Shown: one piece after another, positions 1,206-64,000 of the stretch
How positions within the stretch are numbered: the stretch's first letter is position 1
Layout of the letters: the number at the start of each line of letters is the position of its first letter
Assembly: GCA_001599975.1 (NCBI GenBank)
Contig: BCIO01000006.1
Location: 491,587 to 555,586 of the forward strand
Source of the DNA: Cystobasidiopsis lactophilus
Taxonomy: Eukaryota; Basidiomycota; Agaricostilbomycetes; Agaricostilbales; Chionosphaeraceae
Length of the DNA: 64,000 nucleotides
Reading direction: 5' to 3'
Notes under the pieces: generated by a model
Seen by the model: only the letters and a program-made list of their open reading frames with translations
What the model was told of the DNA's origin: nothing
Databases searched by the model: none
Program-made: the position numbers and the translations under genes

Positions 1206-2867
1206 TCAGGCCATGTGGGGCCGCGGTTGATCTGCTATCGCTTGATGCAGTGGCCAGTCATGGTCTGAATGCACAAAAACTTTAGACGAAGCATTTGGAT
1301 CGAGGAGAAGTAGAACTTGCACAAGGTGCTCCAGGCATTTGCCCTGGTCCGACTCCGCCACGAACTGACTCCACAACTCCGCGCTGGGGAACTTGCGCGC
1401 AAAGAGCACGTTGGGATTCGACATGGCCGCAAAGTCAGAGTCGTGCAGGATCCGCCCGTCCTTGCGGGGCCCAATGTAGATTGAGTCCACTTTTCTCTCG
1501 AGCCGCTGCTTGAACTCGGGGATGGAGGCGACCACGGTGGCCAGGAACTGCTCGTCGGAGGCGAACAGGAAGCGCCCGTAAGCGTCGAACAGGGAGAAGA
1601 CGGCGGGCGAGGAGAGGATGTATTCGACAAAGCCGCGGGAGTAGATGGCCCACTGCGAGGCCCATCCTGTCCGGAGGGTGTAGTATGACGGATCTGTCAC
1701 ACGACTCAACCCGAATTCTATCGGGAATCCTCGAGGAAGCTCACCTGACGGGTTGAGCGACCACCCAGCGGGAGCGAGCCTTTCGGAGAGCCACCGCGTC
1801 GGATGCGAAATTGCCCCTGGGACTTTGGAGGCGGAAAAGTGATCTAGGTTGACGTGGAAGTCGTGCCGCGGCGGCGAACCCTCGCCGAAGAAGTCGATGT
1901 GAGAGACGTGCGGCTGGAGGTCTTGCAGAGCCGCCTGGCACCGATCCACGCACTTGACAGGCATGGTGGAGCCCCCGATGACCACAACGTGGTCCCAGCA
2001 AGCTCCCATGGTGTCCGACATGGTGAGAAGAGTCCGAAAACCCAGAAACTCCGCAGCCAAAAGCTCGGCTGTGCCCCACGCACTTCGGACTGGGTTGGCC
2101 ACCAGCTGAATGCGAGAGCTGCCAAAACCGGACACGATAGCTTGCATCTGGAGAACGAATGCTGGCGAGCTGCCAACATCGACGTGCACGGCAACCAAGA
2201 AGGTGGGCTGCTGGGCGAGGTAGTGGAGGGTGATGTTGACAATGTCGAGCCCTTTGAAGCCTTTCATTGAAGCATCGCTGACGAGATAGACGAACGCTTG
2301 GTAGCGGTTGTCGGCCGCTTCAGAGCAAGGGGGGCGGGCGACTTGGGCTGAGAGCAGGCGGGCATCCAAAGCTTTGCGCGCAGCGAACTTGGTGGGCCAC
2401 CCGCCCTTTTTCTCGCAAGCACCAGACCAAATCCCGCTCTTGCAAAGGGCCATGTCCACGTCCCTGAGCTGCAGGGCAAAAGTCGTGGTGCCGAGCACGC
2501 TCGCTGCTCCCGCAATACACAACTCTTGCAACCACGCTTCTCGCACAGCTGGAACTGCGTCCACATCCAGATCGTCGAAAGATCTGTATTGGAAGGTCTC
2601 CAACTCTTTCGTCGCTTGCGTCGAAATGCTATTTCTTTGCTGCGCGGTCAAGGGAAGTCCAGGGAGGTGGCGATCGCAGCTGGAGCTCAGGACCGGAGAC
2701 GATAGGTCTTCCGGTAGTAGGGGCATGTGCTGGTCAAATGGTGCCGTCGTAAACGTCGACAGGCGAGGAAAGAGGGAGACCGTGGCGAAGGTGAGCAGAA
2801 CGGCGGCCAGAGCGAAAGGGACGAAAAATTTTGGGGCCGGTGGCCCGCTTGTGCGCCAGGACGACAT
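1206..2867 (-). CDS. Core-2/I-branching-type glycosyltransferase (GT14)
   Basis: Type II membrane protein of about 536-553 aa. A short cytosolic tail (MSSWRTSGPPAPK) is followed by one hydrophobic anchor (FFVPFALAAVLLTFATVSLF) and a lumenal catalytic domain. Diagnostic of the Core-2/I-branching (xylosyl/beta-1,6-GlcNAc transferase) family are FVYLVSD near the domain start, VAVHVD, NPVRSAWGTAELLAAE, VVVIGGSTMPV and the late GWASQWAIYSRGFVEYIL plus FASDEQFLATV. A 51-nt stretch at 1694-1744 starts GTGAGC, ends GTGACAG and keeps the frame, so it is probably an intron that leaves no stop. The expected role is Golgi transfer of a sugar from a UDP-sugar to a glycan. The acceptor is unknown. It is divergent from the propeller gene at 3470. 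Confidence 0.85.
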   Translation of the reverse strand: MSSWRTSGPPAPKFFVPFALAAVLLTFATVSLFPRLSTFTTAPFDQHMPLLPEDLSSPVLSSSCDRHLPGLPLTAQQRNSISTQATKELETFQYRSFDDLDVDAVPAVREAWLQELCIAGAASVLGTTTFALQLRDVDMALCKSGIWSGACEKKGGWPTKFAARKALDARLLSAQVARPPCSEAADNRYQAFVYLVSDASMKGFKGLDIVNITLHYLAQQPTFLVAVHVDVGSSPAFVLQMQAIVSGFGSSRIQLVANPVRSAWGTAELLAAEFLGFRTLLTMSDTMGACWDHVVVIGGSTMPVKCVDRCQAALQDLQPHVSHIDFFGEGSPPRHDFHVNLDHFSASKVPGAISHPTRWLSERLAPAGWSLNPSGELPRGFPIEFGLSRVTDPSYYTLRTGWASQWAIYSRGFVEYILSSPAVFSLFDAYGRFLFASDEQFLATVVASIPEFKQRLERKVDSIYIGPRKDGRILHDSDFAAMSNPNVLFARKFPSAELWSQFVAESDQGKCLEHLVQVLLLLDPNASSKVFVHSDHDWPLHQAIADQPRPHMA

Positions 2868-3469
2868 TCTCTAGGGCAATGACAGGCGGTCAGCCATCCA
2901 GTCGCAAAGCTGGCATGCTGGACGTTTCTTCCGTAGAGGCGGCCGCCAAGTCTTGATCGCCACCTAAGACATTCAAGTTGACTCGGAGGCGATGAACAGA
3001 TCGCTCCCCTTATTAGTTCGCCAGCAGCTACTGTCTGCCGATAGACATCGAACAAGAGCTTTTAGGGGTGCAAGATTGTGGGAGGTCGACGTCGCTGATA
3101 GAGGAGCTCGGATCCAATGCCAGTGCCACTGCCTTGCTGAAGGTCGACCGTCTGATCTATTTCGTGTCTTCCCGCTCTGCCTAACCACCTCACGCGTTGC
3201 AAAAGAGTATCAAGGCGCCGCGGAGAGCTTCCTAGATCGCTTCAATCGAGTCTCGTCTCGCAACTCGAAAGCTGCCTGGATTAGATTCTGATACTGGCAG
3301 CCCCATGATATCGCGAAAGGACTGGTCGATTTTAACGGCATGCACTCTCCTTTGATGCCGACGCGTTGCTCGGGCCTACTGCGTGGCGGCAGCGAGTTTC
3401 TCTCTTTCTTCGAAGTTCTTTCTGCTCCACCACCTTTGACGCCTGTAATGCCCCCATAACGACCTAATC
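2868..3469. promoter_or_regulatory. Divergent intergenic region (GT14 / BNR_4 propeller)
   Basis: About 600 bp separate two ATGs that point away from each other, so it must hold both promoters. I do not see a clear TATA box or a coding frame. Confidence 0.4.
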
Positions 3470-5458
3470 ATGAGCCATCGATCTTTTTTGACCGTCGCCT
3501 TAGTGCTCTGCCTCGTCTTGGCATGGGGCAACGCGTCTGGCAGTCCCCCCGCAGCCAACTCTCTTCTGGCTGCCGCGCCCTTGGATTCGCCAAACCAACC
3601 ACGGCATGCACTGGGTAGAGTGGGTGCCCATCGCAACAGATTGGTAAATCAGCGCAAGGCGTCTGGTAAAAGGCACAAGAAGAAGAAGAAGAGGCGGAAA
3701 AAGAAGAAGAGTGCGAAACTTGTTCCTTGCCTCAATGCAACCACTTCTCATTGACGATACGGGCGGCAGAAATGGCCATTCCCATCAAGCATCAAAAGTG
3801 TGTTCTGTCTTGTGATTGACTCGTCGCCGAACTTACTTCGAAGAGCAGATTTTGGAAGGACGAAAGGGCGCTCTTCGGCTATAATCCCGGATTTCAGCCC
3901 AACATCGTCATGTTCGACAAGGAGGGCCGCGCATGGATCCGCGAGGGCAACGTCAAGAATTGGGCTACCGACGATATGGCGACAGACCCCGCAATCCTCA
4001 TGCTGCGCTCGGACAAGACTTGGCAGCGCTTCGCGCTTTCGCCAGCACTCAAGGCAGCATTCCCGCTCTGGGACGGCCTCTACTCGGCGGGAGCCTACCT
4101 CGATGAACGCGTTATATTCGAGACGAACGGTTCTCGCGCCTGGACACACATCATGATCCGGGCCCACATCCCTTGCCGACACTTCGTGATCATCAGCAGC
4201 AACTCTGGCATCACATGGGAGTGTGTTATTCTTCTCATATCTTTGCCACAACAGGTCTGATCCTTGCCCAACAGCCAAGTCGTGGAGCTTCCATATCCCT
4301 ACGTTATTGTCAAGCCCTCATTCGAAAGCCAAGACGGCTTCAACGAGGTCGCTCCCGTCGCATTGGTCGAGATGAACAGCTGGAATCGCGGGCCATTGAA
4401 GCTGTGTCGCTTCGCCCCCATGCAGATCGGCGACCACCATGTCGGCCCCAAGCTGACAATCGACCTCGGAGTTGAAGGCTCATCGCCAGTCATGCACAGC
4501 GGCTCGGGAAACAGTATTGTTACAAGAGGCGGGGTGTCATTCATCACTTACGTCGACTTGGTCCCATTTTCCGGGCAGCATGCCGCCAATATGGGCGATT
4601 CAACCGGAGTGCCTACGTTTATAATGGCCTACGACCACGTCAAGGAGAAGAAGACTGGGCCTGTCTTCATTGGTTTTGGTGGCAAGGGGCTTGACGGTCA
4701 TAACTCGGCGGCCATCACCCTCGACAAAGAAGGCACAATCCATGTCGTCATGGGCGCCCACCATGGGCAGTTTCTGTACACCCACTCCCTGAAACCCCTC
4801 AGCGTAACGAATGGCTTCTCAGCTCCGATCGCGCTGGGCCCGCCCGGTGCGACCTATCCAGCACTCCTGACTTCGCACGACAACGTGATGCACTTGATAA
4901 CGCGCAATTCTAACGACCAATACTACTTCTGCCTGGACTATCTGTCCAAGAAGCCGACCGATGGCTCCTGGACGAACCACGGTCACTTGGTGAAACCGTT
5001 TCGCCAATACTACGCCGTCTGGTGAGACTCTCTGGCGGGTGGCGAACCTCGCGGCTTTTTCGTCTCTTGTGTGCGGTCTAAATCTTTTACGCAGGCACCA
5101 CAGATTGACACTGTCACCTACCGGTAACCTGTTCCTGTGGTATCAGTTCCAAGCCGATCAACTCGGCTGGGACACGGGATTCAAGCTGGACAACGGCTCG
5201 ATCGCCGAAGAGGCGAGCCCAGAAGTGGTTGCCTACAGACAGCGATGGCCGCATCAAAGGCTGATTCGCACTGGCGACGACCGTCCAGTGGTGAGTAGCA
5301 TCTCCTTCAACTGTCCGCTGATCGTGCTCATGCCTGCACTGCAGAACGGCAGCGGCTGGACCACTCTGCCGCACGGCCAATGTCTGCTGAAATTCACGAG
5401 AAGCTCGCAAAAGTGGAAGCTGGCGACCACCGGGGACTTGCATGAAGAGCAAGCGTGA
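3470..5458 (+). CDS. Secreted BNR_4-type beta-propeller protein
   Basis: The first exon encodes a signal peptide (SFLTVALVLCLVLAWGNASG) and then a striking polybasic run (KKKKKRRKKKK, about 3675-3712). The body matches BNR_4 repeat proteins: NIVMFDKEGRAW, FIGFGGKGLDGHNSAAITLD, GTIHVVMGAHHGQ, GATYPALLTSHD and a last exon GNLFLWYQFQ. Introns seen: 4221-4274, 5022-5094 and 5291-5344 (54 nt, in-frame). The join between the first exon (frame closes at 3754) and the propeller exon (open from about 3860) is not resolved; an intron covering about 3740-3860, or two, is needed. BNR_4 proteins are six/seven-bladed propellers often tied to polysaccharide binding, hydrolysis or lysis. No catalytic residues can be assigned. 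The tail after LHEEQA ends at 5458. Confidence 0.7.
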
Positions 5459-5796
5459 TACAGTAGCTCAGGTTTGCCCTTCCTTCGTTTACCGCAACTC
5501 AGCATTCCGCTTCCGTGTAAATTCTGATTCTGTACCATTCTACTCGTTATGAATCGCCGTTACATAGCTTCGAGACCACACGCTGGCCTCTGACGCGCCG
5601 CTTGTCGGAGCAGACCTGCCAAGATTTTTTCCTGCGCGACTTCGCCCCATGTCTCAGCCTAGACCTTGCCCTCGAGTCGTGAGGCGTTGGTCGCTCCCAG
5701 GGTGTGGTTTGCTAACGCCAAACTGCATCCCGCAGCGACTCGTCGACAGGGTCATCAAGCACCCATTGAACGACTGGCACCCGCGGAGCTCACCCT
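5459..5796. other. Intergenic, no gene seen
   Basis: Sits between the propeller gene and the four-base first exon of the following glycosyltransferase. It presumably holds that gene's promoter. Confidence 0.4.
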
Positions 5797-8700
5797 ATGA
5801 GTAGGGGTTTCTTTTGCCTTGCTGCCACCCACTTAATCTCAATGAGCATCACCTAGGCTCCAGTTGGGATCGGTTTACATGGCGGCGGAGCCAAATCCCG
5901 CTCCTAGGATCTCGGGGACCTCGACGACGCTTCGTCCCCCAAGTCTTTCTGCCAATTGCTGGACTTGCCCTTGTGGCTCTGTTTTGGACAAGTCGGTCAA
6001 CACACCAACAGCCTTTGGTGTGCATAATCGGCAACAGCCAGTCGTCGGCGAACGCAACTCGGGTCTACGAGCAATGGGGCGGCCTCTTCCCAACAGTGTA
6101 CTTTGTTTGGGGCGATGACGCTGGACCTGCGACGCAGTCTTCCACCAAGGACCTACAATTCGTCACTTCTGAGGATGGCAACCTGCCTTTTGCCGATGGT
6201 ATGCAGAGAGCATTGGACGTCGCTTCCAGCTCGTACGGCTGCGACTACATCTTCACCCACGACGATGACTTGGTGTTCTACCCTACTTTGGCGTTACGAG
6301 ACCAGGCGGCACTTTTCATGGCCGAGCAGGGGGAGGAGGCGCCGACAGAGTGGACAGGCCTGGACGCTGGCCGCTTTCTACGAACCTTGCTGGCAGCGTA
6401 CAAGCCCGCCATCGCGAGCTTCCCTTGGGAAGTGGGGGACAATCGCTTTCCTGGTATGGTTGAGCTGCGGGAAACCTACAAGAATGCTATCGTCGCCCCC
6501 TTGACCGGTTTCGACAACGGGATGGTCATCTATCACAGGGATGTTGTGCCATTCTTTTTTGTGCGTCCCTCTCATTTCAGCGTGCGCAGCTCGTTCAAGA
6601 CCTCTCATTCTGTGTCATAGCCCTTTCATCCCCGTGGCGAGGGCGGATTTGTTGGCAAATGGACTCTTGGTGCCCATTTCCTCCAGGTGCGTGCCGACCT
6701 CGAATCCGGCTCGATTCCGAGTGAAGCTTCTGCGGCTGCAGATGTTCGGGCCCTTGGTGTTCAAAGAAAACGCCATGCGCGTCAACGCCCTTTCCTACAA
6801 CAACACTATCAATTTGGATAACCAAGTTGCAACCAAGGGCGACATAACGATCGTAAATGGTACGGCTCACGTCTCGTGGTCTCGCCACCCATACGAGTAC
6901 CCCATGAAGTAGGTAGTCTTAGTTATTTGGAGATCGTCGCTTGATCGTCGCTCACTTCGTGAACAGCGAGGCGTACATCGCGTTTCTCGAATCAGGCCTA
7001 CGTGATCGCTCGCAGCCCTATGGCCGGAACATGTTCCCACCAGACGCAGTGGTGCCTCATCCTTCTGATGGTGACGGTTTTTCGCCGGAGTGGATCGTGC
7101 GCCGACTTGCAGAGGTGTACGATGTCCGGCACGAGGCGGTAGCCAATAGTCCTCTCATTGCTGCTGCACCGCCCGCCCTCCTTGACGACCTGGCGATCAC
7201 AAGAGCAGCTTTCCGAGTCATCTTCTTCACCAAAAACCGGCCGGCGTCATTCCTACGACTCTGGCGCTCCTTCCTCTCTGCACTCAAACCCGACTTTCCT
7301 GTCCACGCCAGCATCTACGTCGATGCAGATCCAGATCTATCGGCCAAGAGTTTGCAGCACTATCGTGATATTTTCCAGGCCTTGGATCATCCTTACGCGA
7401 CCGTAAAGGTGCACAAGAGCGCAACGGAGAGGGGCCTTAAACGGGCCATTTTGTCCGCATGGGAGCCTGCCTCTAACTTCGAATATGCGATATTCTTAGT
7501 GAGCCTAGCCTTTAACTCTCACTTCGTCGTCGACTTACACATCATGGCTGCACCTACAGGAGGATGACATTGAAGTTTCACCCTTCTTTCTGAGGTGCGT
7601 GCTCGCAATCCTCTGCGTACACTTCAACTTAAAGCTTGCCTACTCGAGTCTAGATACGCTCAAGCGATGATACAGCAATACGTTCACCGCGATCGGGCCA
7701 ATTTTCGGCTTTTAGGCATTTCTCTCTACAACTTGCGCTACAACGAGCCCACGGAAGCGTTCGTGTCAGTGAATAACAATCATTCTGTCTACGCCTACCA
7801 GCAACCGCAGAGCTGGGGCTGTGTTTACTTGCCGGAACCTTGGCGGCGCTTTCTCAAATATCAAAAGGCGACGCTAAAGCAAGGGCTGGACCCTCTGGTC
7901 CCAAATTCCTTCACCAATCGATGGCCCAACACTCGCAGCTGGAAGAAGACTTTTCTGCGCTTCACTGTCGAAGAAGGCGGCTACTTCCTCTACCCAAACC
8001 TTCCTGACCACCTGTCATACTCGACCAATCACGTCGAGGTCGGCACGAACGACAAAGCCGGGACCACCGCCCAGGCTGATCTCCTTCACTCCAAGTTTAC
8101 CGTGCCACTTTTGACGCAAGAGTTTGATGATGGAAGCTGGCTCCCTAATATGCCGTCGTTGGACCAGCTGCAGGTGTACTCGATTTTGCACAAGGCACTG
8201 GATGCCCCGGTCTCCCAGCTCTCAAAAGCCACGACCGCTATCAAGACCTTCGATAAATGCACCGCCATTTTAGAAGTCGGTCCTGACAGTAGCAAGTCTA
8301 GCAGCTTTCTCAATTGGATGGCGAAACACCACGCCAACGAACAGCTCGGTCAAATTCTGCTCTTATGGGATTCAGAAGCGGTAGACCCTCCACACCTTGC
8401 GTCTAGCGACTACTCCGTTCCTGTCGAGATCGTTCACCCGCCCCAGCGCTCGCTCCATAATCGATTCTATCCCTACCCCGAGATCGTGTACGACTGTGTC
8501 ATCCAAGTGGATGAAAGTAAGCCCAGTCTTTTCTGTCCTTCCAGCCGCATCGACCTAATAAGGCCTGCAGGCTGGGAGATACCGCCCGAGGCTTTTGCCT
8601 ACGCGGTCCAGCTCTGGCGTGGCAATCATTTCAACAACCTCGTCGCCTACAGCCCCTTCGCTCGTAACCACTTGGTTCGCCCTGTCGTGGGCGCCGACCG

Positions 8701-9301
8701 CGTGCTCTACTCACCCAGCTACTTGGCGCCTGCCAACTTCACCAGGCTGGGTCGGAAGCCCTGGGCATCGATTGCTCTCACATCAAATGTCATACACCAC
8801 CGCAAATATATGGAAGCTTACACCAGTGGAGTACCTCAAGAAGCCAGAGACTTGGTCGCTCAACACGGTACAGGCGAAGACTTGCTCCTCAACTTCATCG
8901 TAGCGAACGCCACCGACCGAGGCCCAGTTTTTGTTAATCTCCCGGATGAGACTTTTGGCCAGGTTGCTCTCTCTAGAGTTTGTAAGTCCTGCACACTTAT
9001 GGTTTTAAGATGCTCTCAGTTGACAGAGAGATTAGTGGGCCGCGATGCTCCAGATGCTCTTCGCCAGCGGTCGGCGGTTCTCCAGGGGTTGTCCGACATA
9101 TTCGAGCGCATCCCCCTTCACTATACCATGACATTCTGGACGCCTCAGTCTAGTTGGGTGCCCGAAGGCCTTTCCCACCACGTCTATCAATCGGCCGAGC
9201 CGCACACCTACGCCTGCAACAAAACCGCCTTCGATCAGCACGGTGGGTGCGAAATGCTCGTTACGAAGGAGTTTATGTCGGCGGGAGCATGGGCTGGCTA
9301 G
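5797..9301 (+). CDS. Two-domain glycosyltransferase: EDDIEVSP-type GT-A domain + GT64 domain (copy 1)
   Basis: The start is a four-base exon (ATGA, 5797-5800) spliced over 5801-5856 to give MSSSWDRFTWRR; no in-frame ATG exists in the next exon. A type II anchor follows (VFLPIAGLALVALFW). Then comes an N-terminal region with YIFTHDDDLVFY, a GT-A domain with LEDDIEVSPFFL, QPQSWGCVYLPEPWRRF and NSFTNRWPNTRSWKKTF, and a C-terminal GT64 (exostosin-like) domain: SLHNRFYPYPEI, CVIQVDE, late GEDLLLNFIV. Introns: 5801-5856, 6561-6620, 6687-6741, 6909-6966, 7499-7559, 7595-7653, 8517-8570 and an ambiguous one near 8975-9023. GT64 enzymes transfer GlcNAc or GalNAc in other eukaryotes. The protein ends ACNKTAFDQHGGC...AWAG. 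It is the tandem paralogue of the next gene. The linkage formed is unknown. Confidence 0.85.
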
Positions 9302-9579: not shown

Positions 9580-12500
9580 ATGAGCGGCCATGCACGCAAA
9601 GCTTCAACCCAAGGCAAAGGCAGCGCAAGTGAGCTCCCTGCCGCTAGCCTCCAGATCGATCGTCTTTAAGCTCTTAATGCCACGCAAGTTGTCTACGGCA
9701 ATGAGTGGCGCAGCGTACCTCGACACTTCTGGTCCAAACAACCGCAGCCACCAGACGATGAGGAGGATGCCAAGAATTTGCCGCTAGCCAAACCGCCAAC
9801 CAAAGAAGTGGCGCCTTTTGCTTTCGACCGCCGTCGTACAAGGCACCTGAGAACCCTGATACTCGTGCTCGCTATCGGTTTCTCGCTTTGGCTGTTCTTG
9901 CGCCCCGGAGCCCGCGACGCCTCACCCGTCGACTCCCTGCGCCGCTTGCTTGTGACAATGACTGGTGGTTCTGGTCTTCCGGTCAGCGTGTGCATTGCTG
10001 GGAACGCTCAGACTCCGTCCCACGCACGCCGTGCCTTCGATCAATGGGGCGGTCTACTGCCGGCTTGCTTCTATGTGTGGGCCGACGGTGCAGAGGTGGA
10101 CGCCAGCACTGAGCGACTCTGGGCAAGTGATGGGCTGGCACTGGTTAGATATCCTCCTGGTCAAGCGTTCTCAAATGGAACCATGGCCGCACTCAGCTGT
10201 GTGCGCGCTGCGGCTCGCTGTGACTACATTTTCAGTAGGTCTCACTGTCTCGATGAACTTGCAACCTATGCAGATTCTTAAACACAGCGCATGACGATGA
10301 TCTCTCATTTTACCTTCAAGACGAAGAGTCAGGCAAACTGTCCAGCGTCGACGCAACCACGCTTCCTGTCGCCCTGACTGATATTCTGGCTTACTACCGT
10401 CCAGCTGTAGCCGGCTTTCCTTGGCTCGCTGGTATTGATCAGTACGAAGCGATGGGCGAGCAGGCTGAGCACTTTCGCAAGAGCGCAGTGGCTCCGCTGA
10501 CTGGCTTTGACAATGGCATGGTGATCTACCACGAGAGCGTTTTGGACTTTTTTTTCGTACGTCGCCCTCGAACAACCTGACACTTTTCTGACCCGTGGTC
10601 CAGCCCTATGCTCCCACGGGCGAAGGCGGGTTCACAGGCCAGTGGACGCTCGGCGCTCATTTCCTTCAGGTATGTTCGCTGCCATCAGGGCTGCTCGGGC
10701 TGACGACGGACCATTAGATGTTTGGTCCATCCATCTTTCGGGAGCACGCAATACAGATCAAGTCAATTGGTTATCACAACGCGATCAACCCGGACAATCC
10801 AATTCGCAACTCGGATGCTTCCCCCCAATACACAGCTGGCTCACGCCACCGCTACGAAAACGAGCTCAACGAAAAGTATACATCATTTCTGATGTCCGGC
10901 TTGCAAGACCGCGAGATGAACTGGGGCCGGCACCTTCGAGTTGAAGATGTGGCCTTGCCCGCTGTTGCCAGCTGGTCAAAATACTCCAAGTCATGGATCC
11001 TGGATCGCTTGGCTGCTTTTTACCGAGTTCGACACCCGGCCTTGTCTCACAACCGGATGCTTGCCACCATTCCTGCGTCTGCCTTACGCCAAAGAGATTT
11101 TAGGCCGCCCAGGTTCAAAATCAGGCTGTTGATGTTCACAATGAACCGTTTGTCCTCATTCCAACGGTGCTGGGAGTCCGTTCAACGAGCCCATCTACCG
11201 CCTGGGGTGGATGTGCACATTGATGTTTTCTATGACATGGACGCCTCGCGACCCACAAAGCTGGAAACAGACGTGAGGGTCTTTCCTGTTTTTATGAGCT
11301 CACAGAGTGTCTAAGATGCAAATTCGAGTACAACCAATTCCTTCAAAGCATACCTCTGAGGCCGCGTGTGGGCAAATCGGTGACCGTGCACAGGGCTCGG
11401 CGGAGTATGGGTCTGCGGCGGACTTTCTTGACCGCTTGGAGTCCTGCCTCAAATGACGAGTATGGTATTTTCCTGGTGCGTAAACCCCTCTCCTCGACGG
11501 AAACCCTGGGCAGCAATTTATCCGATGTCGTCAGGAGGACGACATCGAAGTGTCTCCCTACTTCCTCCTCTACGCTGAGGCTATGGTCAATGCTTACGTG
11601 TACGCCCAAGCCGCCGATCACCGCCTGTTTGGATTCTCCCTCTTTAATATGCGCTACAACGAAGCCATCGAGGACTTCATTGCCGTGGACTCTGGCTTCC
11701 AACCTTACATCTTACAGCAGCCCCAAAGCTGGGGAGCTGTCTACCTTCCAGAGCCCTGGCGGCAGTTTCTCATGTACGCCGATGAGGTCGAGGCGTTGGA
11801 CATGGACCCGCTGGTCCCAAACTCCTTCACAAACCGATGGCCTCACCACCGAGTAGGTCTCTTGCGGACTTTGATAAGGCAAATATTGACTTTGGGGGTT
11901 GTTTGGGGGCACTGAAGAGCTGGAAGAGTAAGCTTATTGGACTTTCTCTACCGGATGAACGGTATCTTACCTGCATGCGCAATCAGAAATCCTGATTCGG
12001 TTCATGGTCGAGCAAGAGGGTTATATGATATACCCAAATCTTCCGAACGGCCTTTCCTACTCGTACGCTGTCCTTCGCTCGTTTGCCAACAGTCAGCTGA
12101 CGTTGCTGGACCAGCACCAACCACGTTGAAGTGGGCACCAATGACAGGCCTGGCAGCCAATGGCAGAAAGCGAAGATGCATGCCAAGTTTAGGGTCCCAC
12201 TCTTGACAGCGTCGAACTTGTCGCCGACCGAGGCCATGGATTTCAAAACTCCACTCCTCGAGCGCATGGCTGTGTACGACATTCAACACCAGCAAGTGCC
12301 CAGCTTGCAAAGCTTTGCGCGGGGCAGGTGGGCTCTTTCGAGGATCACAGCCGAGGAAACGGACTGACGCTGAAGCTTACAGGGACTATATCAAGTCTTT
12401 CGACAAGTGCACCTTGATCATGCCCGTGTTCAGTCGTATCGCCACCTTCCTGGACCGCGTCGAGTACTACGCAGACGTGGACGTCATTGGCCAAATGCTG

Positions 12501-13717: not shown

Positions 13718-13858
13718 AGGCATGAGTTAAGTTAACTAGAGGTAAAAGTTATATAGAGGTCTACTGTTACAATAAATTACATTGTATTGAATGCCAACCA
13801 CAGCGAAATTCTCTATGCCGAAGTCTAGGGTCGTGAAATGCCATCGTTAGGTCCGTCA

Positions 13859-19920: not shown

Positions 19921-20115
19921 TCTGTTTGTCTCTCGGATTTGCGAGTGTGAAACACTGATTTTGGATGTCAAGCTTGCTTCGCATCAATAGAGGGGTTTCT
20001 GCTGGGACGCACTCCGTGACTTGCTCTCACGAGACTGCAGGGGCGGACCCCGCTGAAGTGAGTCTGCGTTAAATTTGACGGCCGGAAGCTGATATGGCTG
20101 TGCGTACGACAGATA

Positions 20116-33665: not shown

Positions 33666-33775
33666 TGGAAGGGCAGCGGTCGGCCAAAGGACAGAAAAGC
33701 GACGAGTCAGTCTGAAAGAGGCCTGGCGGCTCTTGCAAGTTCAAATGTGGTAACGACACAAGGTGATTACACATA

Positions 33776-37990: not shown

Positions 37991-38087
37991 GGTGCCAGCG
38001 CTGCGAGAAATCAGCTTTGAGCTCGACGGGGGAAAGCCGTTGGTTTAGAAGACTTACCCATTGTTCAAGATATTGGCCCTATCTCCC

Positions 38088-48584: not shown

Positions 48585-49995
<1,411 letters not shown>

Positions 49996-52807: not shown

Positions 52808-55072
<2,265 letters not shown>

Positions 55073-56197
55073 CTTGGAAGCTTGGACACGTAGGATGGAG
55101 GAGTAGGAGAGAGCAAGGCTTTCGACGCGTCTCTCAATTTCCGCTGCTGAAGTCGCGCTTGTGGTCTTACCGGGCCCATGTCTTGCCTAGCCCCTGGCTC
55201 TTATCTCGAGACTCTGCACACTTTGGAGCCACCTTCATCATCCATAAGAATATTGCAACACCGCCGCTCCAAAACTTACACGCTCTGCCACTCTACTACT
55301 TTACCCTGCGCTTTGCGCCATGTCCCACTACTTTGACCAACTCTTAGATGAACAATGCCCTTCGAAGGCGCAGGAAGATGAGGAAACGAGCGCGCTTATC
55401 CCTCTTGTAGGAAACCTTATCGCTTGCTCTGTTGTTGTTGTTGACCTTTGCTCTCCGAGTCTACTTTATCGCCAAATAGCATTATTCAGTGTTGCGTTGT
55501 TAATGCGAACAGACAGAGCAAGCGGCAGCGGCGCACGAAAATAATATGAACCTGCAAGCGCTGGGAGGAATAAAGGATGGATAATGCAGACAATAATCGC
55601 AACAAACAAGGCGCCCGGCGCCCAAGCTCCGCGTTGGTTCGTGATGGCGAAGGGCGTACATAAAAATCAGCTCGTCGACCGCGGCGTGAAAGAGCAGTAG
55701 TACTGTAGTAGTACAGCCAACGAGAGCCAAGTACTTCGCGTCAGCCGCCAACACTACTCAAAGCAAGTTGGGCAAATTGTCGAAGCCGCCGTTGGAAGTG
55801 TCCGACATCACGCATCACGCGGCAGCCCAGGGTCTTGGTGCGCTTGAGCTTTTTGTCCCGCCGCGCCCGTTTGCTGTTGCAACTGCTGCTGATGCATCAC
55901 CGGACCGCGAGTACGGCTGCCAAAGGTTCGTCTCTGCTTCACAAGCCCTGGGCCACAGACCTTGGGCTCGCCGTAAAAAGTTTCCGAACCACGCTCAATT
56001 GTCGACCGCGTTTGTTATCCTCAACAGCTCTGGCGGCCAAATCCGGTTCGCAGCCTGCATCGCCAGAGCCGCCTAACATCACTCCCAAGCGGCGCCGGTC
56101 GTCATCGCAGCCGTCCAGGCTGCTTCTATCTTCGTTCAACCTGCAGGCGCATTCCCTGGGACCGGCGCGCAGAGGGTCTGCCTCTGGCGCGCTCTCA
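55073..56197. other. 1.1-kb stretch between divergent genes, no supported gene
   Basis: Between GMD (minus) and the GT2-GT4 fusion (plus). The fusion's frame is open from 55835 with an alternative ATG at 55892, but the Ser/Arg-rich N-terminal extension would precede the membrane anchor by 100 residues, so I treat it as 5' leader. A frame at 55320 shows no motif. Confidence 0.35.
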
Positions 56198-59152
56198 ATG
56201 AGGTCCAGCTTCTTCAAGAGACGTTGGTTGAACCTGTTGATGCTGCTGGCTCTCTGCTTCACTGCCCTGCAGCTCTTGCGCTCGTCGGCGCGGTCACAGA
56301 GCTCCTTCCTCCCGTCAGCGCCAGCCCTGCACTCCTTCCGGCGGCGGAGCGACGGCTGCAAGTTCACAGCCTCTCCGAGGCCGCTACCTGTGTTCGAAGA
56401 CTCGGCGCACATCTTGTATCAGAACCATCCTATGTCCACCCATCGCCCTTCTTTCCAGTTCGCCGACTGCTCCGCCTCCTTCTCTTTGCCTCCCCATCCC
56501 GTTCTTACCTTAATTACGGCGACCAAGAACCCTGGCGTCAACTTCCAGCTCACAGCCGCCAACATTCGCTCCCAAAGCTTGCAAAATTACCGCTGGCTTA
56601 TCATTGACGACCACTCGGACAACCGCACCAGCTTGAAGTACCTAGAAGATGCGGTAAAAGCAGACCCCCGGATAGCGATACTCAAAAACGAAGGCCAGCG
56701 CGGCCTGGCCGCCTCGCGCAACGTCGGCCTCGATGCGATTTCCGAACACCCCGAATACCAAGGCGCCTATGTGGCCATGCTAGATGACGACGACCTTTAC
56801 GAATTGACGACATTAGAAAAGACGGTGTGGATGTTGGAGAGCAACCCGCAGTGGTCGCTGGGGTCCTTCCACTTTGTCAAGTTTGGCGCACAGAACGTCA
56901 CGGAGACGCGAGGGCTGCACAGCTCTGCAGCAAACTACTTCAACGTGAGTCTTCTGTCTGCTCGTGCATTCCCATCTATCGCTTGACAGCGGGCATCTTG
57001 TAGGAAAACTACGTGGCCAATGCCGCGGTCATTCGCCGTGCATCCATCAAGGACTGTCGTTACGACGTCACATTCAGCTTGGGCGGGGAGGACTGGGACT
57101 TTTGGATGTGTCTGGCGGAGCAGGGGTCGTGGGGTGGGACTTTACCCGAGTTTGCCTACTGGTCAGCGTGCCCTCATTGTTCCTCGGTGGCGTTCGAGCT
57201 AACTTAAGACGCCAGGTACCGCGTCAACGACAAAGCGTTCCGCCGCGAGCGTTGGGGCACCACATTTGAAGGCGGCCAGGCCAGCCTGAAGAAGCGAATT
57301 CAGACCAAACACAAGAGCTTGAGTCGAACCGACCTCTCGTTCCCCAACGCCGAACCCGCAATCTCCATTGCGCTGGAGCCCATCTCATGGGATCCGCCTT
57401 TCGAGAACTCGATCCCAGACACGTCCACCGCTGGCAACATCCTTTTCATTCTGCCCTGGCTCTATATGGGCGGAGCCGACATTGGTGCTCTGCGGATGGT
57501 CGAGACCCTCACTCGACAAGGCTACCGCATCACCGTTGCCTGCACTCTCTACCAGCACGAAGGCGTCGAGCTTCGGCCTATCATGATGCAGTGGACGCAC
57601 GACATCCATGTCATTCCTTCTTTCCTCCGCTCAGCCGACTTTGCCCGCTACATCAAGTACCTTGCCGACACGCGCAAGGTCGAAACCATTCTGATGAGCA
57701 ACTCGATGCTGGCCTACGAAATGCTGCCGGCCCTGCGCGAGCAGCTTCCCCACGTCAGCTTTGTCGACTACCTGCACAACGAGGCGTACGACGGCTGGAA
57801 GTCTGGCGGCTATCCGACCTACTCCATCCTGCATCAGCGCTACCTCGACCGAACCATCTCCTGCTCGCATCACCTCCGGGAGTGGCTGGTCGAAAAGGGC
57901 CACTCTGCAGAGCGCATCGGCGTTGTCAAACTTGGGGTGGACCTGGCCAAGCTGACGCGGGTCAACGAGACCACTAAAGGAGAGCTACGACGCATTATGT
58001 TCGACCGCCTCGACCACCCCAAGGTCCTGCTCACCGTTGCCCGCCTCGACCCTCAAAAGCGGTCGCTTTTAATACCGGACATTGTCAACAATCTCATCCT
58101 TCAGCATGGCTTCGCTTGCCGACCAAAGGAAGAAGGGCCCCCGCTCATTGCAGTCATGGTCGGCACCGGCGAGCTCGAGAAGCAACTGAAAGCGCGCATC
58201 CTCCAGCTTCAACTCGAATCTTGCCTTTTTTTGGCTGGCGTCCAGTCCGATACGGCGCCATTCTATGGTGTGGCGGACGCTTTCCTGCTGCCTTCGATGT
58301 CAGAGGGCATCTCAGTGGCAGTCAGCGAAGCGATGGCGGCTGGCTTGCCAGTGGTGGCTGCTCATGCCGGTGCGCTCCCGGAGCAGATCGGGCTGCGTAC
58401 GGATCCCCAGCGAGCTGGCTTCCTCGTCCACAACACAATGTCTTCGTCGACCGACGCCCGTCTATACGCAGACCGTGTTGCCGAGCTGCTCAAGGACGAG
58501 AAGCTCATGACCTCCTTTGGCGAGAACGGCATCCACCGGGTGCAGGCCGCCGATTGGCGTTCGACGCTGCTCGACATGATCCCGGCTATGCAAGCGGCGC
58601 GCAAGGCGCACGACCACCCTCGGCGGGAATCAGAGCTTCGCCGCTTGCCTCACCCTGCGGCCCACCTAGCCGTTCAAACGCAGCTCAACGAGTTTAGGAG
58701 TATGGTTGACTTCGGCATCATCCATAACTCGCTGTCCGGTACACAACGCGAAGGCTTTGGGCGCGAGCTTCAGCTTCGGTGCGGCAACGAGGTCGAGGTG
58801 GGCCGGTGGATCGACGCTATGGAAGCGCCCCGGTCCTGCGATGGGCCCGAGCAATTGGACATCAAGGGCCTCCAAAAGAGCGGCAAATACCAATGCGGAT
58901 ACTGTGCGTTCAGTCTTCGATTGCTACTCACTGCTGTTGAAACTCATCGCTCTCCGCTCCAGGGTGCATCTGGGATTTGCGGACATCTGCTAGAGTTGGC
59001 TGGTCCTTCAAGTGTGTTCTTTGTTCCCTGGCGTTTGTCTTGTGCTCATCGATGTGCCGACTTCTCGCAGTGGCTCTTGCTTCAAGCGTCTATCCGGCAA
59101 CGAGTGCCAGGGCTTTTTCCACCTTCGGCCAGAGACCATGCTTGAAAGCTAG
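56198..59152 (+). CDS. GT2-GT4 fusion glycosyltransferase
   Basis: ATG 56198 (MRSSFFKRRWLNLLMLLALCF) gives a type II anchor; about 900 aa. Domain 1, GT2: PVLTLITATKNPGVNFQL, SLQNYRWLIIDDHSDN, GQRGLAASRNVGLDAI, AYVAMLDDDDLYELTTLEK and LGGEDWDFWMCLAEQG. Domain 2, GT4: NILFILPWLYMGGADIGALR, ILMSNSMLAYEMLPAL, SCSHHLREWLVEKG, LTVARLDPQKR, VGTGELEKQLKARI, LFLAGVQSDTAPFYGVADAF, SMSEGISVAVSEAMAAG (E-x7-E). Introns: 56945-57003, 57162-57215, 58904-58962 and 59003-59070. The C-terminus is Cys-rich (CGYWCIWDLRTSAR, CGSCFKRLSGNECQGF). GT-A and GT-B folds in one chain are typical of polysaccharide-building enzymes in bacteria and algae. Donors unknown. Confidence 0.87.
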
Positions 59153-59299: not shown

Positions 59300-60799
59300 T
59301 CATTCATCCACGTGAATTAGGGTCATCAGAGATGCAGAGTTGGCGCGGCGCCGCGGTACTGCGTCCAAGGCGTGAGTGGCCGCTTTCACCCTCTTAACGT
59401 GATTGGAGCGGGCCAATCCTTGATCGCGGGTAAGGTGAAGCTCCGCCAAATAGCCTCGAGGGATGTGGGATGTGCTCTCGCACCACTGCACGTCCTCTTC
59501 AGCATTGATAAGCTGTGGAAAACGGCAGACCTTACTTTTTCCGACGCTTGACCTCGCCAATTGGCAGCGCAGACCCTCGATGCATCTCGGGATTTAAGCT
59601 TGCAGTCGTTGAGGTCCCTTTGGACGTAGTGGAAAAGAGCGGCCGGTTCGCTCTGAAACAAAACGTGGACGCCTGCGCGAACGACATTTACACTTTTCAC
59701 GGCTCTTTTGAAACAAGCAGAGCGCACCAGAGTAATGAAAGTTGCCCTCCTCATTCGGAGACGCTTTGACTGCGTTGCCAGCGGCATCCACCGCGACGCC
59801 GGTGGACCGACCAACAATTTCTAAATCGTGCGCGTATGGTATCCAGACGTGGGATTTGCCATAGTTAGTGTGAGCCAGATTCTGAATGGCTCGTTATGAA
59901 ACGTCCACGACACCTGGCTACGGTCAAAGTCAAGACGCACTTTGGTGTAAAACTCTTTCGCGCCTGGACTTGTGTGATGCGAGTCTCGCACAGTCTGACT
60001 TTCTAGAAGCGACGCAGAAACTGGAAGCTGGACGTGGCCGTCATTGTTGTAGGCATATCTCGATAGAGCGACAGCGTCGGCGTTCTTCACAGACCGACCC
60101 TTGAGAAAGTTCAGAAGGAAGGGCCGGTCGGTTCCGGCGATGTCGGAGGTGTCCACGAAGAATTCATCTATGTCGAAGCCAGTGAGCCAGTTGGTGGAGT
60201 TGGAATACGCCTTGAAGCAATGGCGGAGCGCTTCTGGCTGGTGCCAGCAACCGTGATCTGCACATCTTTAAGATTAGCGTGATAAGCCGCAGCTGAATGC
60301 GGGTCTTACCTTTTGAAAACTGATGCAAGACCACAACGCCCGCCTCTATCCAAGGCTGCAGCACTTGGAGGCTGTTGTCGCTGCTGCCTTGGTCTTGGTT
60401 CGCCGGCAAGTCTCAACGTCGTGGATCTGGCAGCAAGAGACAGCGCATACCGTAAAGATAGAACTTCTCGATGCCAGCGAGCCTATGATGCACAAGCCAT
60501 TCTTGCAGCCACCTTCCTTCGTTCAAAATCGCAGCGCAGGAGGCGATCTGGACTGAAGAGTTTGGCGGCTGCAAAAGCCGCTGCCTCCATTGCGCGTGCA
60601 TTCGACCAGCAGATTGAGCGGGCTTGAAATAACAAAGCCATGCTAGGGTCACACATGCTGCCAGCAACAGCTGAAGGACGAGTTTCGGATTGCGCGAAGG
60701 ACTTCGCCGGGAGGAGGTCTTGTCAACTGCTTGCGAAATATAACCTGGCCATTCTTGCCCGGGAGAAATGCGCAGGACCGAAGGCGCCTTTCCAGTCAT
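59300..60799 (-). CDS. GT92-like (DUF23) glycosyltransferase 2
   Basis: ATG at 60799 (MTGKAPSVLRISPGQEW), anchor PKLVLQLLLAACVTLAWLCYF, then VQIASCAAILNEGRWLQEWL, HHRLAGIEKFYLYG | DDSDNSLQVLQPWIEAGVVVLHQFSKG, an intron, and HGCWHQPEALRHCFKAY, NWLTGFDIDEFFVDTSDI (D-I-D metal site), LSRYAYNNDGHVQLPVSASL, KVRLDFDRSQVSWTFH and, in a later exon, ALFHYVQRDLNDCKLKS (GT92 HY...K motif). The 3' end is uncertain: the frame runs to 59386 unspliced, or to 59300 if a 23-nt segment (59513-59535, GTAAGG...CCACAG) is removed. Same family as the genes at 32132 and 62883, but distinctly diverged. Confidence 0.75.
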
Positions 60800-61002: not shown

Positions 61003-62211
61003 TCACAACGCCTCGAATGTCTGTCGCACAACATCGATGGTAGCCTGTGCCCCTTCATATACTGGCCTTAATGAATCCAGGATCAATCGTGTCGGTAAGA
61101 TCGCTAACCAGGGTTCTTGGTCGTTGAATCCAAAGGTGATGAGAACCTCGTTTTGTCGTTTGCCGAAAAAGGCGGTGCCCATAACGAATTCGAACCAGTC
61201 AACGTCTTCGTGGTGGGCAAAAAAGGCGAAGGGTTCGGAGTAGCCAACGGGGACTACAGCTTCGACGTCGAACAAGAGAAAGCGGTGCGTGTACCGATCC
61301 TTGAAAATGGCGCCCGGCGGGAAATCTTCTGGTCTTGTCCGCTGGTGGACCATTCCTAGCGCGTAGCGACTAGAACTGTTCAGATTCAGGCGAAGCAAAG
61401 GTGCAGAACCCCTCCATTCGGCAGCGCTCGATGGCAGTTGAGAGCCGTCCAGCCGGAGATATGAATGTACTGCGCAGCGTCGCCAGTCCGTAATATCTGG
61501 AAGGCCGCAATCGACTGAAGTGAAGGGATAGAAGCGAGTGATGAAGAGGAGGTTGCCGGCAGACGATTCCACAGCCATCCAATTCTTTTGCTGTTGCCAG
61601 AACCCTTGAGGTCTATCTAGAGCATCGACGTTGTCCAAAAAGTCGAAGTGGGATAGCTGCCGTCTCTTCCAGCTTCTGCCCTCCCCATCCGCGGCCCACT
61701 CCAAGAATGCTACCCCATCTCGCGGCTTGCCGTAAGCCACCACATCTGAGCCATTGTGGCCAATAAGCCGCATGTCGATTACGCGGAAATCAGGGATCTC
61801 CTGTTCATTTGAGAACGACAAGCGAAGGTGGTCGGCCCCATCGAGGCGCGAGGACGAAACGTGGAGGTTCATCGCCACATGCTTAACGGCCCAATCGAAG
61901 CCATTGTCGGAATAGTGAACGGACGAGCCATTTACTCTGGTGAAAGAGCCTGTTGCCAGTTGGATTGTTAGAAGGTAGGTCTGCTCTTGCGCTTGTTGAC
62001 CGTCAAACGCAGGGTGGGCAACAATCGCCGGATTCGAGGGGAATCGGTAGCCGTACGTGTCGTTAAGGGCAGTGAGCGATTTAAGCAGTGGAAGCCTCTG
62101 CAGGCGCCAAGCGGAGCTGGAGGGCGCGTAATTGATCCCGCGCATTCGATAGCGCAAGCCACCGGCTTCCAGGAAGCAGTCCAGCGAGCCCTGAACATCA
62201 ATAGGCTGCAA
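61003..62211 (-). CDS. Beta-propeller-like protein of glycan metabolism (5' exons unresolved)
   Basis: One long exon beginning after an acceptor near 62211 (PIDVQGSLDCFLEAGG). It has repeated blade-like segments: VNGSSVHYSDNGFDWAVKHV, FRVIDMRLIGHNGSDVVAYG, VAFLEWAADGEG, NWMAVESSAGNLLFITRFYP, ALGMVHQRTRP, YTHRFLLFDVEAVVPVGYSE, DVDWFEFVMGTAFFGKRQN, EVLITFGFNDQEPWLA. The last two resemble the closing blades of five-bladed GH43/GH130-type propellers that accompany many eukaryotic glycosyltransferases. I cannot assign a reaction. The ORF has no ATG at its 5' end; exons at about 62250-62400 (IIAAYHHLID) and 62430-62540 (CQEQNLLARRVVSDGNRI) probably precede it. Confidence 0.6.
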   Translation of the reverse strand: MQPIDVQGSLDCFLEAGGLRYRMRGINYAPSSSAWRLQRLPLLKSLTALNDTYGYRFPSNPAIVAHPAFDGQQAQEQTYLLTIQLATGSFTRVNGSSVHYSDNGFDWAVKHVAMNLHVSSSRLDGADHLRLSFSNEQEIPDFRVIDMRLIGHNGSDVVAYGKPRDGVAFLEWAADGEGRSWKRRQLSHFDFLDNVDALDRPQGFWQQQKNWMAVESSAGNLLFITRFYPFTSVDCGLPDITDWRRCAVHSYLRLDGSQLPSSAAEWRGSAPLLRLNLNSSSRYALGMVHQRTRPEDFPPGAIFKDRYTHRFLLFDVEAVVPVGYSEPFAFFAHHEDVDWFEFVMGTAFFGKRQNEVLITFGFNDQEPWLAILPTRLILDSLRPVYEGAQATIDVVRQTFEAL

Positions 62212-62399
62212 TGGAGGGGGCTGGAGAAGCGATAGGATACTGTCTTGAAGGTGAACTGCTTGACATCGATGAGATGGTGGTAAGCCGCAATGATTGGGAG
62301 AGAGTTACCATCCGAGGCCCTCGTTCGCCTGTCCGACGCGTCCCAAGACCGGATTGTGTCGGATAGGCCTAGTTTTGCTGGCACACTGGTTCCCAATGA

Positions 62400-62882
62400 T
62401 TTCAGTTCTTAACCCGGGAACAGCAGACACGGACGCCAATCTGACCTCGAGAATCCTGTTGCCATCAGAGACAACGCGCCGAGCCAGCAGATTTTGCTCT
62501 TGACACTGGAGATGCGCATTATCGTGCGCGGCACCATCGCCGGGGAGCTATCTCCAGGGAACTTCTCCTTGGACATGCTGTTCAAGAAAAGGAGAGAAAC
62601 GCAATGCTGTTCAAGAGAGAAGAGCCAAGGCCATCGCGACCCGCCGGGAAAACCAAATTTGCCAGCGCCATGATCATCAGCTTCCTATAGCTGGCATCCT
62701 GGCTCCAATCCCCGTCACAAAAGAAATTGCTTGGGCTCCTGAGCTAGATCGTCGAAGTCACTAGTGGCAAAGAACCGACAAGGTGGTAGAATAATAATAT
62801 GGCAGCTCGTAATAAGCTACAATCATGGAAGCTTTCCGGCTCTGCGTAATCACCTCTAAAGATGGACATCCTTGTAGGCATC
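62400..62882. other. Probable 5' exons of the propeller gene and intergenic sequence
   Basis: The left 150 bp may be coding on the minus strand (see the propeller gene). The rest, up to the stop of the GT92-3 gene at 62883, shows nothing recognisable. Confidence 0.3.
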
Positions 62883-64000
62883 CTAAGGCCATGTCGACCG
62901 CGCCAGATCGAATCGGCACGGCACATGGGGACATGGCCAGCCCATCTTCTTGAAAACGGCCTCTCTTCGGGTCCACAGATTCGCCACGTAACTTTGAAAG
63001 CTGGCGGACGCGTTGGTTGCCAAGTCACAGCTCGTTCCATGGTCGGTTTCGTGATAGAAACTTAGCGCGGTGATGTTGTCCTGCAAAAACTTTGCCTCAA
63101 ATCCGCGATACCAGACCTCGCCGTAACTGCAGTGACAAAACCAACGTGAGCTCTTTCGAATAGCTTGAAGCTTCAGAACGCACTGTACCGACGCCGTTTC
63201 AAGACCATCAACCCGGTGCGTGCACTTGTTGTTCCATTCTCCCGCGTTGCGCTTGTGCGTAAAGTATGCAAGCTCGGAAAGTGGACTATTTGCAACGGTC
63301 GGTTTGACCAAGTGCGAAAGATCCATCGGAGGGCCGCATTTGTAGCCCTTTTGAAAGCACAAGCTGCCATAGGAGCTAGAAGCGAATTGGGCGTAGAAAC
63401 GTGGAATGGCGGTGGCGAGGTCGGCAACATCTTCTGGGAACGGTTCCGGAAGGAACATTTCGTCGATGTCCATAAATGCCACCCAGCGGCTCGGATATGG
63501 GTATGCTGAACGGTGCTTGCAGTGCAAGAGATAAAGCACCTAAAGCCGCTCTCAGCAGGTGTTGGTGGCCTCGTTCAAGACAAGCGTACCTGGTCTGCAT
63601 ATAGGCCGGAGTGCTCCATACTGGTGCGATGGCCATACGTTTCGGGACTCAGAGGTGGTGCGTAGGTGAAGGTGTCGTGAGCCCCGGTCGCCTTTGTGTA
63701 CATCTTGACGAAGTCGCGGACACTTGCATCGCGTCCATACCAATGAACGGTCTTGACACCGAGTTCTAAATGATGGTGCCGCCAATCCAACAATCGCCGG
63801 GCTTCTGGGTGGCCATAGATCGGGCTGATGCAAATAGCGAGCTGCGAACAGGTAAGCAACGTGCATATACGACAGGCATGAGATCCGCACCTCTGTTGGA
63901 GCAGTCGGTGCTTTTTCAACCAATGAAGTCGAGAAATCAAAAGTAGTTGTTGTCCCCTTGAGGTGAAGTCGCAGGTCGACTCGTAAAGTGCCGAGTGCGA
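62883..64000 (-). CDS. GT92-like (DUF23) glycosyltransferase 3, partial at right edge
   Basis: C-terminal part only; the start is beyond 64000. Over an intron at about 63537-63590: CISPIYGHPEARRLLDWRHH, LELGVKTVHWYGRDASVRDF, AHDTFTYAPPLSPETYG, then AYPYPSRWVAFMDIDEMFLP (D-I-D metal site), FYAQFASSSYGSLCFQKGYK, RNAGEWNNKCTHRVDGLET, SFYHETDHGTSCDLATNA. It ends RFDLARSTWP at 62883. The order MYGEE/IYGHPE, VHWY, DTF, DxDE is shared with the gene at 32132, confirming a common family. Role unknown beyond transfer of a sugar in the secretory pathway. Confidence 0.75.

Follow-up and report, generated by a model that had tools for sequence, protein, structure and literature searches.

A cluster of capsule-related glycosyltransferase and other sugar-related genes in a 64-kb window of probably basidiomycete DNA

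Bacterial capsule and exopolysaccharide loci bring together nucleotide-sugar synthesis, many glycosyltransferases (GTs), acyl modification and a lyase-like protein, and undergo local turnover. Bacteria often keep such genes physically clustered, which is unusual for fungi. In Cryptococcus, where GT69 and GT90 are capsule families, the capsule genes are mostly scattered. For basidiomycete yeasts in general, coat assembly is hard to study since its genes are thought to lie apart. The available part of one genome study places CAP59 and CAP60 in GT69 and CAP10 in GT90, and describes CAP homologues, a putative GDP-L-fucose synthase and GT64 in lichen-associated Cyphobasidium and Tremella genomes, on the basis of which acidic polysaccharides, a fucose-containing one among them, are predicted by its authors; that part reports no cluster (PMC8355462). 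Among the matches listed in the open-licence PMC literature, as far as the available passages go, the closest described fungal cluster is the five-gene galactosaminogalactan (GAG) cluster of Aspergillus fumigatus and its relatives, which comprises a sugar-nucleotide enzyme (Uge3), a GT (Gtb3), a deacetylase (Agd3) and two remodelling enzymes, Sph3 and Ega3 (PMC4817252, PMC13202872). The same passages place it in Pezizomycotina and, among basidiomycetes, only in Trichosporon asahii (PMC4817252), and a 2026 review treats it as a well-characterised example (PMC13202872). Here we describe a 64,000-nt stretch of DNA from contig BCIO01000006.1 (the window), in which glycan-building, capsule-related gene families are physically clustered from position 1206 to the right-hand edge. 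An earlier note, made from the letters of the window alone, had taken this for a fungal locus in which capsule or exopolysaccharide genes are gathered; the clustering of capsule-related families stands, and a capsule or exopolysaccharide is a candidate product suggested by those families. That note did not recognise the cluster as one already described, and in keeping with it no comparable fungal cluster was present among the matches listed from open-licence PMC papers. Our preferred reading, to which we give a probability of about 0.6, is that the cluster would provide much of the Golgi assembly line for one or a few fucose-containing, acylated surface or secreted heteroglycans.

Gene content and physical clustering

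Twenty-six gene loci, in addition to two partial PC-esterase copies, were found within 1206-64000, the span examined as the cluster; all positions are numbered on the window. The claim of a GT-rich locus between 1.2 and 64 kb was borne out, since 13 of the 26 loci carry a GT domain above the Pfam cut-off: GT14, two GT64 fusions, two GT90, two GT69, three GT92, GT25, a GT2+GT4 protein and an incomplete GT10, making eight Pfam-defined GT kinds. Further sugar-related loci encode GDP-mannose 4,6-dehydratase (GMD), GDP-L-fucose synthase, a nucleotide-sugar/triose-phosphate (TPT) type transporter, a BNR_4 propeller, four SGNH-type proteins and two PC-esterase-like proteins. Two loci, a CPL1-like protein at 17275-18246 and a protein at 61003-62576, have no sugar assignment. 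Pfam matches lay only below the cut-off for a DUF1647-like protein, two SGNH-type proteins (GDSL_2) and the two PC-esterase-like proteins, and SGNH-type proteins 1 and 4 and the 61003-62576 protein gave none in the Pfam scan. At an assumed GT share of 1.5%, the binomial probability of at least 13 GTs among 26 loci is 1.7e-17; with the share raised to that of all CAZymes in a basidiomycete yeast genome (322 CAZyme genes of 6095 in the available part of PMC8355462) it is 1.4e-10. Counting every GT family a single time (8 of 21) changes the two values to 4e-10 and 7e-6. These binomial values take no account of the window having been chosen as a striking one. Even with this generous background, chance clustering is very unlikely. 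The strand changes 14 times among the 26 loci, and the arrangement is therefore no operon.

The Pfam scan covered 28 proteins (the BIR neighbour described below, the cluster models, and GDP-L-fucose synthase as two halves), with the two partial PC-esterase copies left out of it and of the 26-locus count; ten further open reading frames (ORFs) that lie inside gaps or span them matched nothing in Pfam apart from a GT92 already known. Fungal glycolipid clusters also carry GTs and acyltransferases, which would suit a cluster for a glycolipid or other secondary metabolite. Against this, none of the 28 scanned proteins had a Pfam match to a polyketide synthase, nonribosomal peptide synthetase, terpene, cytochrome P450, fatty-acid or efflux family and the number of GTs is far above that of such clusters, and we hold such a product to be exceedingly improbable.

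Genes were modelled with a self-trained gene finder at its stricter setting, which includes an intron penalty. This gave 30 gene models with 118 introns of median length 56 nt, of which 110 have CAG or TAG at the 3' end. Branch-point-like CTRAY occurred in 50 of the 118 introns (42%) against 7% of exon pieces, an excess that is partly circular, as the gene finder itself scores this motif. G+C per 2-kb block ranged from 51.5 to 60.1% over the 32 blocks of the whole window, and searches of the window for tRNAs and Rfam families found none. That the DNA comes from an intron-rich fungus is well supported, short of proof, because it combines GT69/CAP59 and CPL1-like Pfam families with short introns; we take GT69 domains of the CAP59/CMT1 type and CPL1-like domains to be fungal families. 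The fungus is probably a basidiomycete. Animals and plants have GT64, GT92 and TBL-like proteins, and a protist, an alga or some other eukaryote with polysaccharide genes of its own could also carry them, a possibility that can overlap with other readings. The CAP59_mtransfer match at E 2e-66 and the CPL1-like domain speak for a fungus instead, as do the short introns with their branch-point-like motifs (partly built into the gene finder), and a non-fungal source appears very unlikely.

Probable GDP-fucose supply, glycosyltransferases and candidate modifying enzymes

Two consecutive enzymes of GDP-fucose synthesis are encoded in the cluster. GMD (53216-55057, minus strand) matched PF16363 at E 6e-157 and scored 593.6 bits against the TIGR01472 equivalog, whose cut-off is 415. 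GDP-L-fucose synthase (GMER; 48585-49995, plus strand) was split in the automatic model; joining eight exons gave a single open frame of 327 residues, with two exon ends taken from a looser gene-finder run that overpredicts introns. It matched solved GDP-L-fucose synthases at E about 1e-131, the best of which presumably include the human enzyme, and its YAHGK stretch fits what we take to be the YxxxK motif; against NF047922 it gave E 7e-54, under the 500-bit cut-off of that model. Both enzymes are open, full-length proteins, and from their sequences GDP-fucose can probably be made by the cluster itself. The GDP-L-fucose synthase and GT25 genes are arranged head to head, their modelled starts 135 bases apart, and may possibly share a promoter.

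The GT10 fucosyltransferase locus (46120-46686, plus strand), which neighbours the GDP-fucose genes, had been called a remnant, and this description held. Its match to PF00852 (E 9e-17) covers profile positions 61-132, that is 72 of 182, and is terminated by an in-frame stop; by both the match and the reading frames the locus lacks a complete C-terminal donor domain, and a 27-bp tandem repeat lies inside it. A frameshift was considered here and dropped: the frame change need not be a lesion because it can be spanned by an intron of 53 nt that is predicted there. The locus is probably degenerate.

The two GT64 genes stand in tandem and encode three-part proteins that are 42% identical over 869 aa. 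GT64a (5649-9301, plus strand) matched PF09258 at E 3e-28 and EXTL3/EXT1 at E 7e-11 and has one anchor, and its paralogue GT64b (9700-13717, plus strand; start approximate) matched PF09258 at E 1e-47. In both, an N-terminal part with THDDD is followed by a middle part with LEDDIEV and a C-terminal GT64 domain, with identities of 45%, 54% and 42%, respectively. The first part gave no match in the Pfam scan, and the middle part a GT2 match below the cut-off in one copy. GT64b aligned with EXTL3 at E 2e-28, DDD to DDD, and has ED in addition near the C-terminal end of its GT64 domain. Profile comparison of parts 1 with 2 and 2 with 3 detected no relation, in what is a weak test with two sequences each, and a search of viral contigs with GT64b gave no match. 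No three-part enzyme of this kind is known to us.

The capsule-related families are represented by two GT69 and two GT90 genes. The GT69 at 25232-26937 (plus strand; CAP59/CMT1 family) matched PF11735 (CAP59_mtransfer) at E 2e-66 and has a hydrophobic segment at residue 91; the second copy (27342-28872, minus strand; PF11735, E 2e-28; 5' end uncertain) is 25% identical to it. A search of viral contigs with GT69 gave one locus (48 residues at 38%); nothing else alike was seen in the 601 bases of it inspected, and the match was taken as chance. The GT90 genes (CAP10 family), both on the minus strand and each with one anchor, lie at 20258-22726 (PF05686, E 2e-9) and 33776-36071 (PF05686, E 7e-15). 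The three GT92 genes, also on the minus strand, all retain a DxDE motif: 32132-33489 (PF01697, E 8e-14; DTDEF), 59300-60740 (E 2e-10; DIDEF; scanned as 59300-60601, with an anchor in frame at about 60682) and 62883-64000 (E 2e-11; DIDEM; open at the window edge). GT14 of the Core-2/I-branching type (1206-2867, minus strand; PF02485, E 1e-11) has one N-terminal anchor and found no relative at E<=1 in the PDB, and GT25 (47148-48449, minus strand; PF01755, E 5e-7), with one anchor, matched nothing in NCBIfam.

The GT2+GT4 gene (55892-59152, plus strand) encodes a two-domain enzyme (PF00535, E 3e-12; PF00534, E 1e-22) with one anchor, at residue 115 of the longer model. A search of GTDB genomes with 700 aa of it, by a method that detects close relatives only, returned 11 pattern matches but nothing related; a close bacterial donor was thus not found, and an older transfer would fit the same result. 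A further gene (50290-52807, minus strand) had been named as GT2-DUF1647-like. It does match PF07801, at E 0.0013 and 19 bits against a cut-off of 25.7, which makes it a putative GT; its anchor lies in an upstream frame. The TPT-type transporter (13727-15411, minus strand; PF03151, E 6e-28) has an uncertain 3' end in the model.

The earlier note gave most GTs one N-terminal anchor, and a strong hydrophobic segment was indeed found within about the first 135 residues for 11 of the 14 GT or GT-like loci, although in four of them it is seen only in frames that lie before the start of the model. The exceptions are the GT92 at 32132-33489, the incomplete GT10 and the GT92 at the window edge. The pattern fits that of Golgi type II enzymes.

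Six proteins are candidates for acyl modification. The four SGNH-type proteins all keep a GGS motif: SGNH 1 (18596-20136, plus strand; 5' end uncertain) is related to SGNH 2 by blastp at E 4e-41; SGNH 2 (23049-24569, plus strand) matched PF13472 (GDSL_2) at E 0.01, below the cut-off, on a model starting at 22862; SGNH 3 (29100-30858, plus strand; start approximate, scanned as 29297-30858) matched the same family at E 0.00095, also below the cut-off; and SGNH 4 (38088-39732, minus strand; one anchor) is related to SGNH 3 at E 2e-41. The two PC-esterase-like genes, both on the minus strand, lie at 41404-43157 (TBL/ESKIMO1 style; PF13839, E 0.032; GDSL...DCLH) and 43249-44732 (a 49% paralogue with one anchor; PF13839, E 1e-4), again below the cut-off. 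Both full genes keep GDS and DCxH, the latter a motif that belongs to TBL proteins. The likeness to plant TBL/ESKIMO1 O-acetyltransferases consists of the N-W-P-C block, GDSL and DCxH; the alignment of the 43249-44732 protein with ESKIMO1 (6cci) over the N-W-P-C and GDSL block reached E 0.044 only, and the context here is fungal. Neither protein matched the Cas1_AcylT domain in Pfam, so that of the Cas1p type proposed earlier the weak PC-esterase matches are kept and a TBL/ESKIMO1 resemblance takes the place of the rest.

Self-BLAST revealed two partial copies of these PC-esterase genes on the minus strand. The copy at 31012-32065 is 95% identical over 1068 nt to 42558-43622, a stretch that runs from the 3' end of one PC-esterase gene across the spacer and takes in roughly a third of the following gene, at its 5' side. 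The copy at 36397-37998 is a mosaic: 36397-37856 is 87% like 40395-41849 (the 3' end of the 41404-43157 gene and downstream DNA), 37786-37998 is 86% like 43562-43771 (inside the 43249-44732 gene), and its differences show no codon periodicity. Such a mosaic of both genes is what unequal exchange between the tandem genes would produce. The recent partial copies, the paralogue pairs and the incomplete GT10 together show that the locus has undergone internal duplication and decay.

One might go further and regard the whole locus as a hotspot at which GT-type genes are gained by duplication and decay without a joint pathway. The incomplete GT10, the two partial PC-esterase copies and the diverged paralogue pairs are what such a hotspot would leave behind, as is the failure of any common upstream motif to exceed the matched control (see below). 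What it would have to explain in addition is that non-homologous, complementary functions (the two consecutive GDP-fucose enzymes, a transporter and the modifiers) lie side by side, for which duplication alone is no sufficient explanation, and that eight GT kinds, each counted once, still give P of 4e-10 to 7e-6. We therefore consider a mere hotspot distinctly unlikely.

A candidate lyase is encoded by the BNR_4 gene (3464-5458, plus strand; PF15892, E 9e-9, on the scanned model 3772-5458). A signal-like hydrophobic segment is in frame at 3464 and is putatively joined to the model, and the protein is probably secreted. In PDB searches the nearest credible matches were propellers of the GH145 group, 5muk (E 0.0065), which we take to be BT3686, and BACCELL_00856 (E 0.055), followed by the PL25 ulvan lyase (E 0.16); ubiquitin entries at the top of these searches were repeat artefacts, each single stretch scoring less than 7 bits. 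The protein has DGHN and GAHH, with two His 20 residues apart. In the available part of its description, FoRham1, a fungal lyase and BNR_4 protein, has His85 and His105 (PMC8377490). If the match start (query 24 to chain 83) is taken as gap-free, the His pair falls on 90 and 110 of the 5muk chain, the numbers given for the corresponding His of BT3686. The likeness to GH145/PL42 propellers (BT3686, FoRham1) thus lies in the BNR_4 family and in two His 20 residues apart; the similarity is very weak (E 0.0065 at best, over a segment) and FoRham1 itself was not among the PDB matches. Propeller lyases of this kind carry a catalytic His pair and a neutralising Arg on seven blades, and it is the His spacing that is matched here. 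A trimming lyase, as a candidate of the GH145/PL42/PL25 group, is plausible. A second protein (61003-62576, minus strand) had also been called a propeller, which it resembles by eye only: neither Pfam nor NCBIfam gave a match to it, and the PDB offered nothing credible, the best entry being a two-pore channel at E 0.5, taken as chance.

CPL1 is a secreted protein of Cryptococcus. The CPL1-like cysteine-rich protein (17275-18246, plus strand; PF21671, E 1e-8) has a start that looks like a signal peptide by eye, with no segment over the hydrophobicity threshold. A two-BIR (survivin/Bir1-like) protein at 1-812 (minus strand; PF00653, E 1e-37; model open at the window edge) is a non-sugar neighbour outside the cluster and marks its left border. 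The right end is open, and the cluster continues past the window, because the GT92 at 62883-64000 runs off position 64000.

A possible assembly line and its weighing

In the reading that we prefer, GMD and GDP-L-fucose synthase would convert GDP-mannose to GDP-fucose in the cytosol, the TPT-type transporter would move nucleotide sugar into the Golgi, and type II membrane GTs (GT69, GT90, GT92, GT64, GT14, GT25 and GT2+GT4) would add sugars stepwise to an acceptor, while PC-esterase/TBL-like and SGNH proteins would attach or remove acyl groups. The glycan would be secreted and then trimmed by the BNR_4 propeller, in the manner of cleaving or modifying enzymes in bacterial and Aspergillus exopolysaccharide clusters, and the locus would expand by local gene duplication and lose genes by decay.

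Several observations weigh against this assembly line. Gene ends are approximate throughout the models, and the SGNH and PC-esterase assignments consist of sub-threshold matches, paralogy and motifs. The sole recognisable fucosyltransferase in the window is the incomplete GT10, so that the user of GDP-fucose would be another GT here or a gene elsewhere. GT64a has DES at the place of GT64b's DDD, with GED kept; two of the three DDD acids are thus missing, which may have left the third domain changed or without activity. No common motif above the matched control was found in 24 upstream regions, which were set by approximate gene starts (50 bases off for GDP-L-fucose synthase): the best 7-mer reached 6.21 against 6.33 and the best 8-mer 5.46 against 7.14. 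GCTGCC, present in 21 of the 24 regions, was enriched over Markov-resampled sequence and was rejected, as it was not enriched over random 450-nt window pieces (z 3.87 against a 95% maximum of 4.90). Rhodotorula toruloides is, we take it, a Pucciniomycotina yeast. Its measured exopolysaccharide is described, in the available part of the source, as containing glucose, galactose, mannose and trace pentoses, with no fucose reported (PMC12628781), so fucose coats are not general. Neither a polymerase-like multi-membrane synthase nor a Wzx/Wzy flippase/polymerase or ABC exporter was found in the 28 proteins and ten further ORFs, the intergenic spaces not having been scanned exhaustively.

With no polymerase-like synthase found, there is room for a glycoprotein or glycolipid glycan. 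The cluster would then build elaborate N- or O-linked glycans of secreted or wall proteins, or glycolipids, with GTs acting stepwise on bound acceptors and no free polysaccharide being made. The one GT90 searched against solved structures (33776-36071) is nearest to protein O-glucosyltransferases (protein O-glucosyltransferase 2, E 7e-8; protein O-glucosyltransferase 1, E 2e-7), and GT10, GT14, GT25, GT90 and GT92 all have members that act on protein or lipid glycans. However, 13 GTs, six acyl-modifier candidates and a lyase-like protein would exceed the needs of known protein-glycan pathways, and GT69 and GT90, to which CAP59/CAP60 and CAP10 belong, are Cryptococcus capsule families. Bound glycans as the sole product seem to us unlikely, if worth keeping in view, and a fucose-containing, acylated heteroglycan is still the better account of the cluster.

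Comparison with known polysaccharide systems

The GAG cluster, as far as its description was available, shares with the present locus the adjacency of a sugar-nucleotide enzyme, GT and modifying enzymes, the modifiers here being sub-threshold or recognised by motif. It differs in size and design: it has five genes and one membrane-associated polymerising GT (Gtb3), whereas the window holds 26 loci with 13 GTs and a GDP-fucose supply, and a Gtb3-like polymerase-type membrane GT was absent from the 28 proteins and ten ORFs of a cluster that continues past the window. The Cryptococcus/Tremella capsule (glucuronoxylomannan) system is resembled in the two GT69 and two GT90 genes above the cut-off, the acyl-modifier candidates and the CPL1-like protein. 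The Cryptococcus-type Cas1p, however, combines PC-esterase with Cas1_AcylT, whereas the window proteins have weak PC-esterase matches without Cas1_AcylT, and the UDP-glucuronate and UDP-xylose supply of that system has no counterpart among the scanned proteins; such enzymes could sit elsewhere in the genome.

The analogy with bacterial capsule loci, drawn in the earlier note, is upheld for gene content and fails for mechanism. Nucleotide-sugar synthesis, many GTs, acyl modification, a lyase-like protein and local turnover are found on both sides. In contrast to bacterial loci of the Wzx/Wzy, ABC and synthase types, the window genes are spliced, lie on both strands, form no operon and encode type II Golgi-style GTs, with no flippase, polymerase or exporter found. 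A bolder reading, which we put forward tentatively and think rather doubtful, is that the locus might be a eukaryotic counterpart of bacterial capsule loci: a block of more than 60 kb would hold nearly the whole recipe of a lineage-variable surface polysaccharide, cassette-like gain, duplication and decay of GT and acyl-modifier genes could alter the coat between strains, and the three-part GT64 fusions might serve as chain builders that replace a polymerase. The coats of basidiomycete yeasts are of importance in biofilms and lichens as well as for biotechnology and immunity. Should the genes of the window work jointly, the pathway and the variation of a fucose-containing fungal coat could be read from one locus, and no fungal cluster for glycan building in the literature searched would be as large, the five-gene GAG cluster being far smaller.

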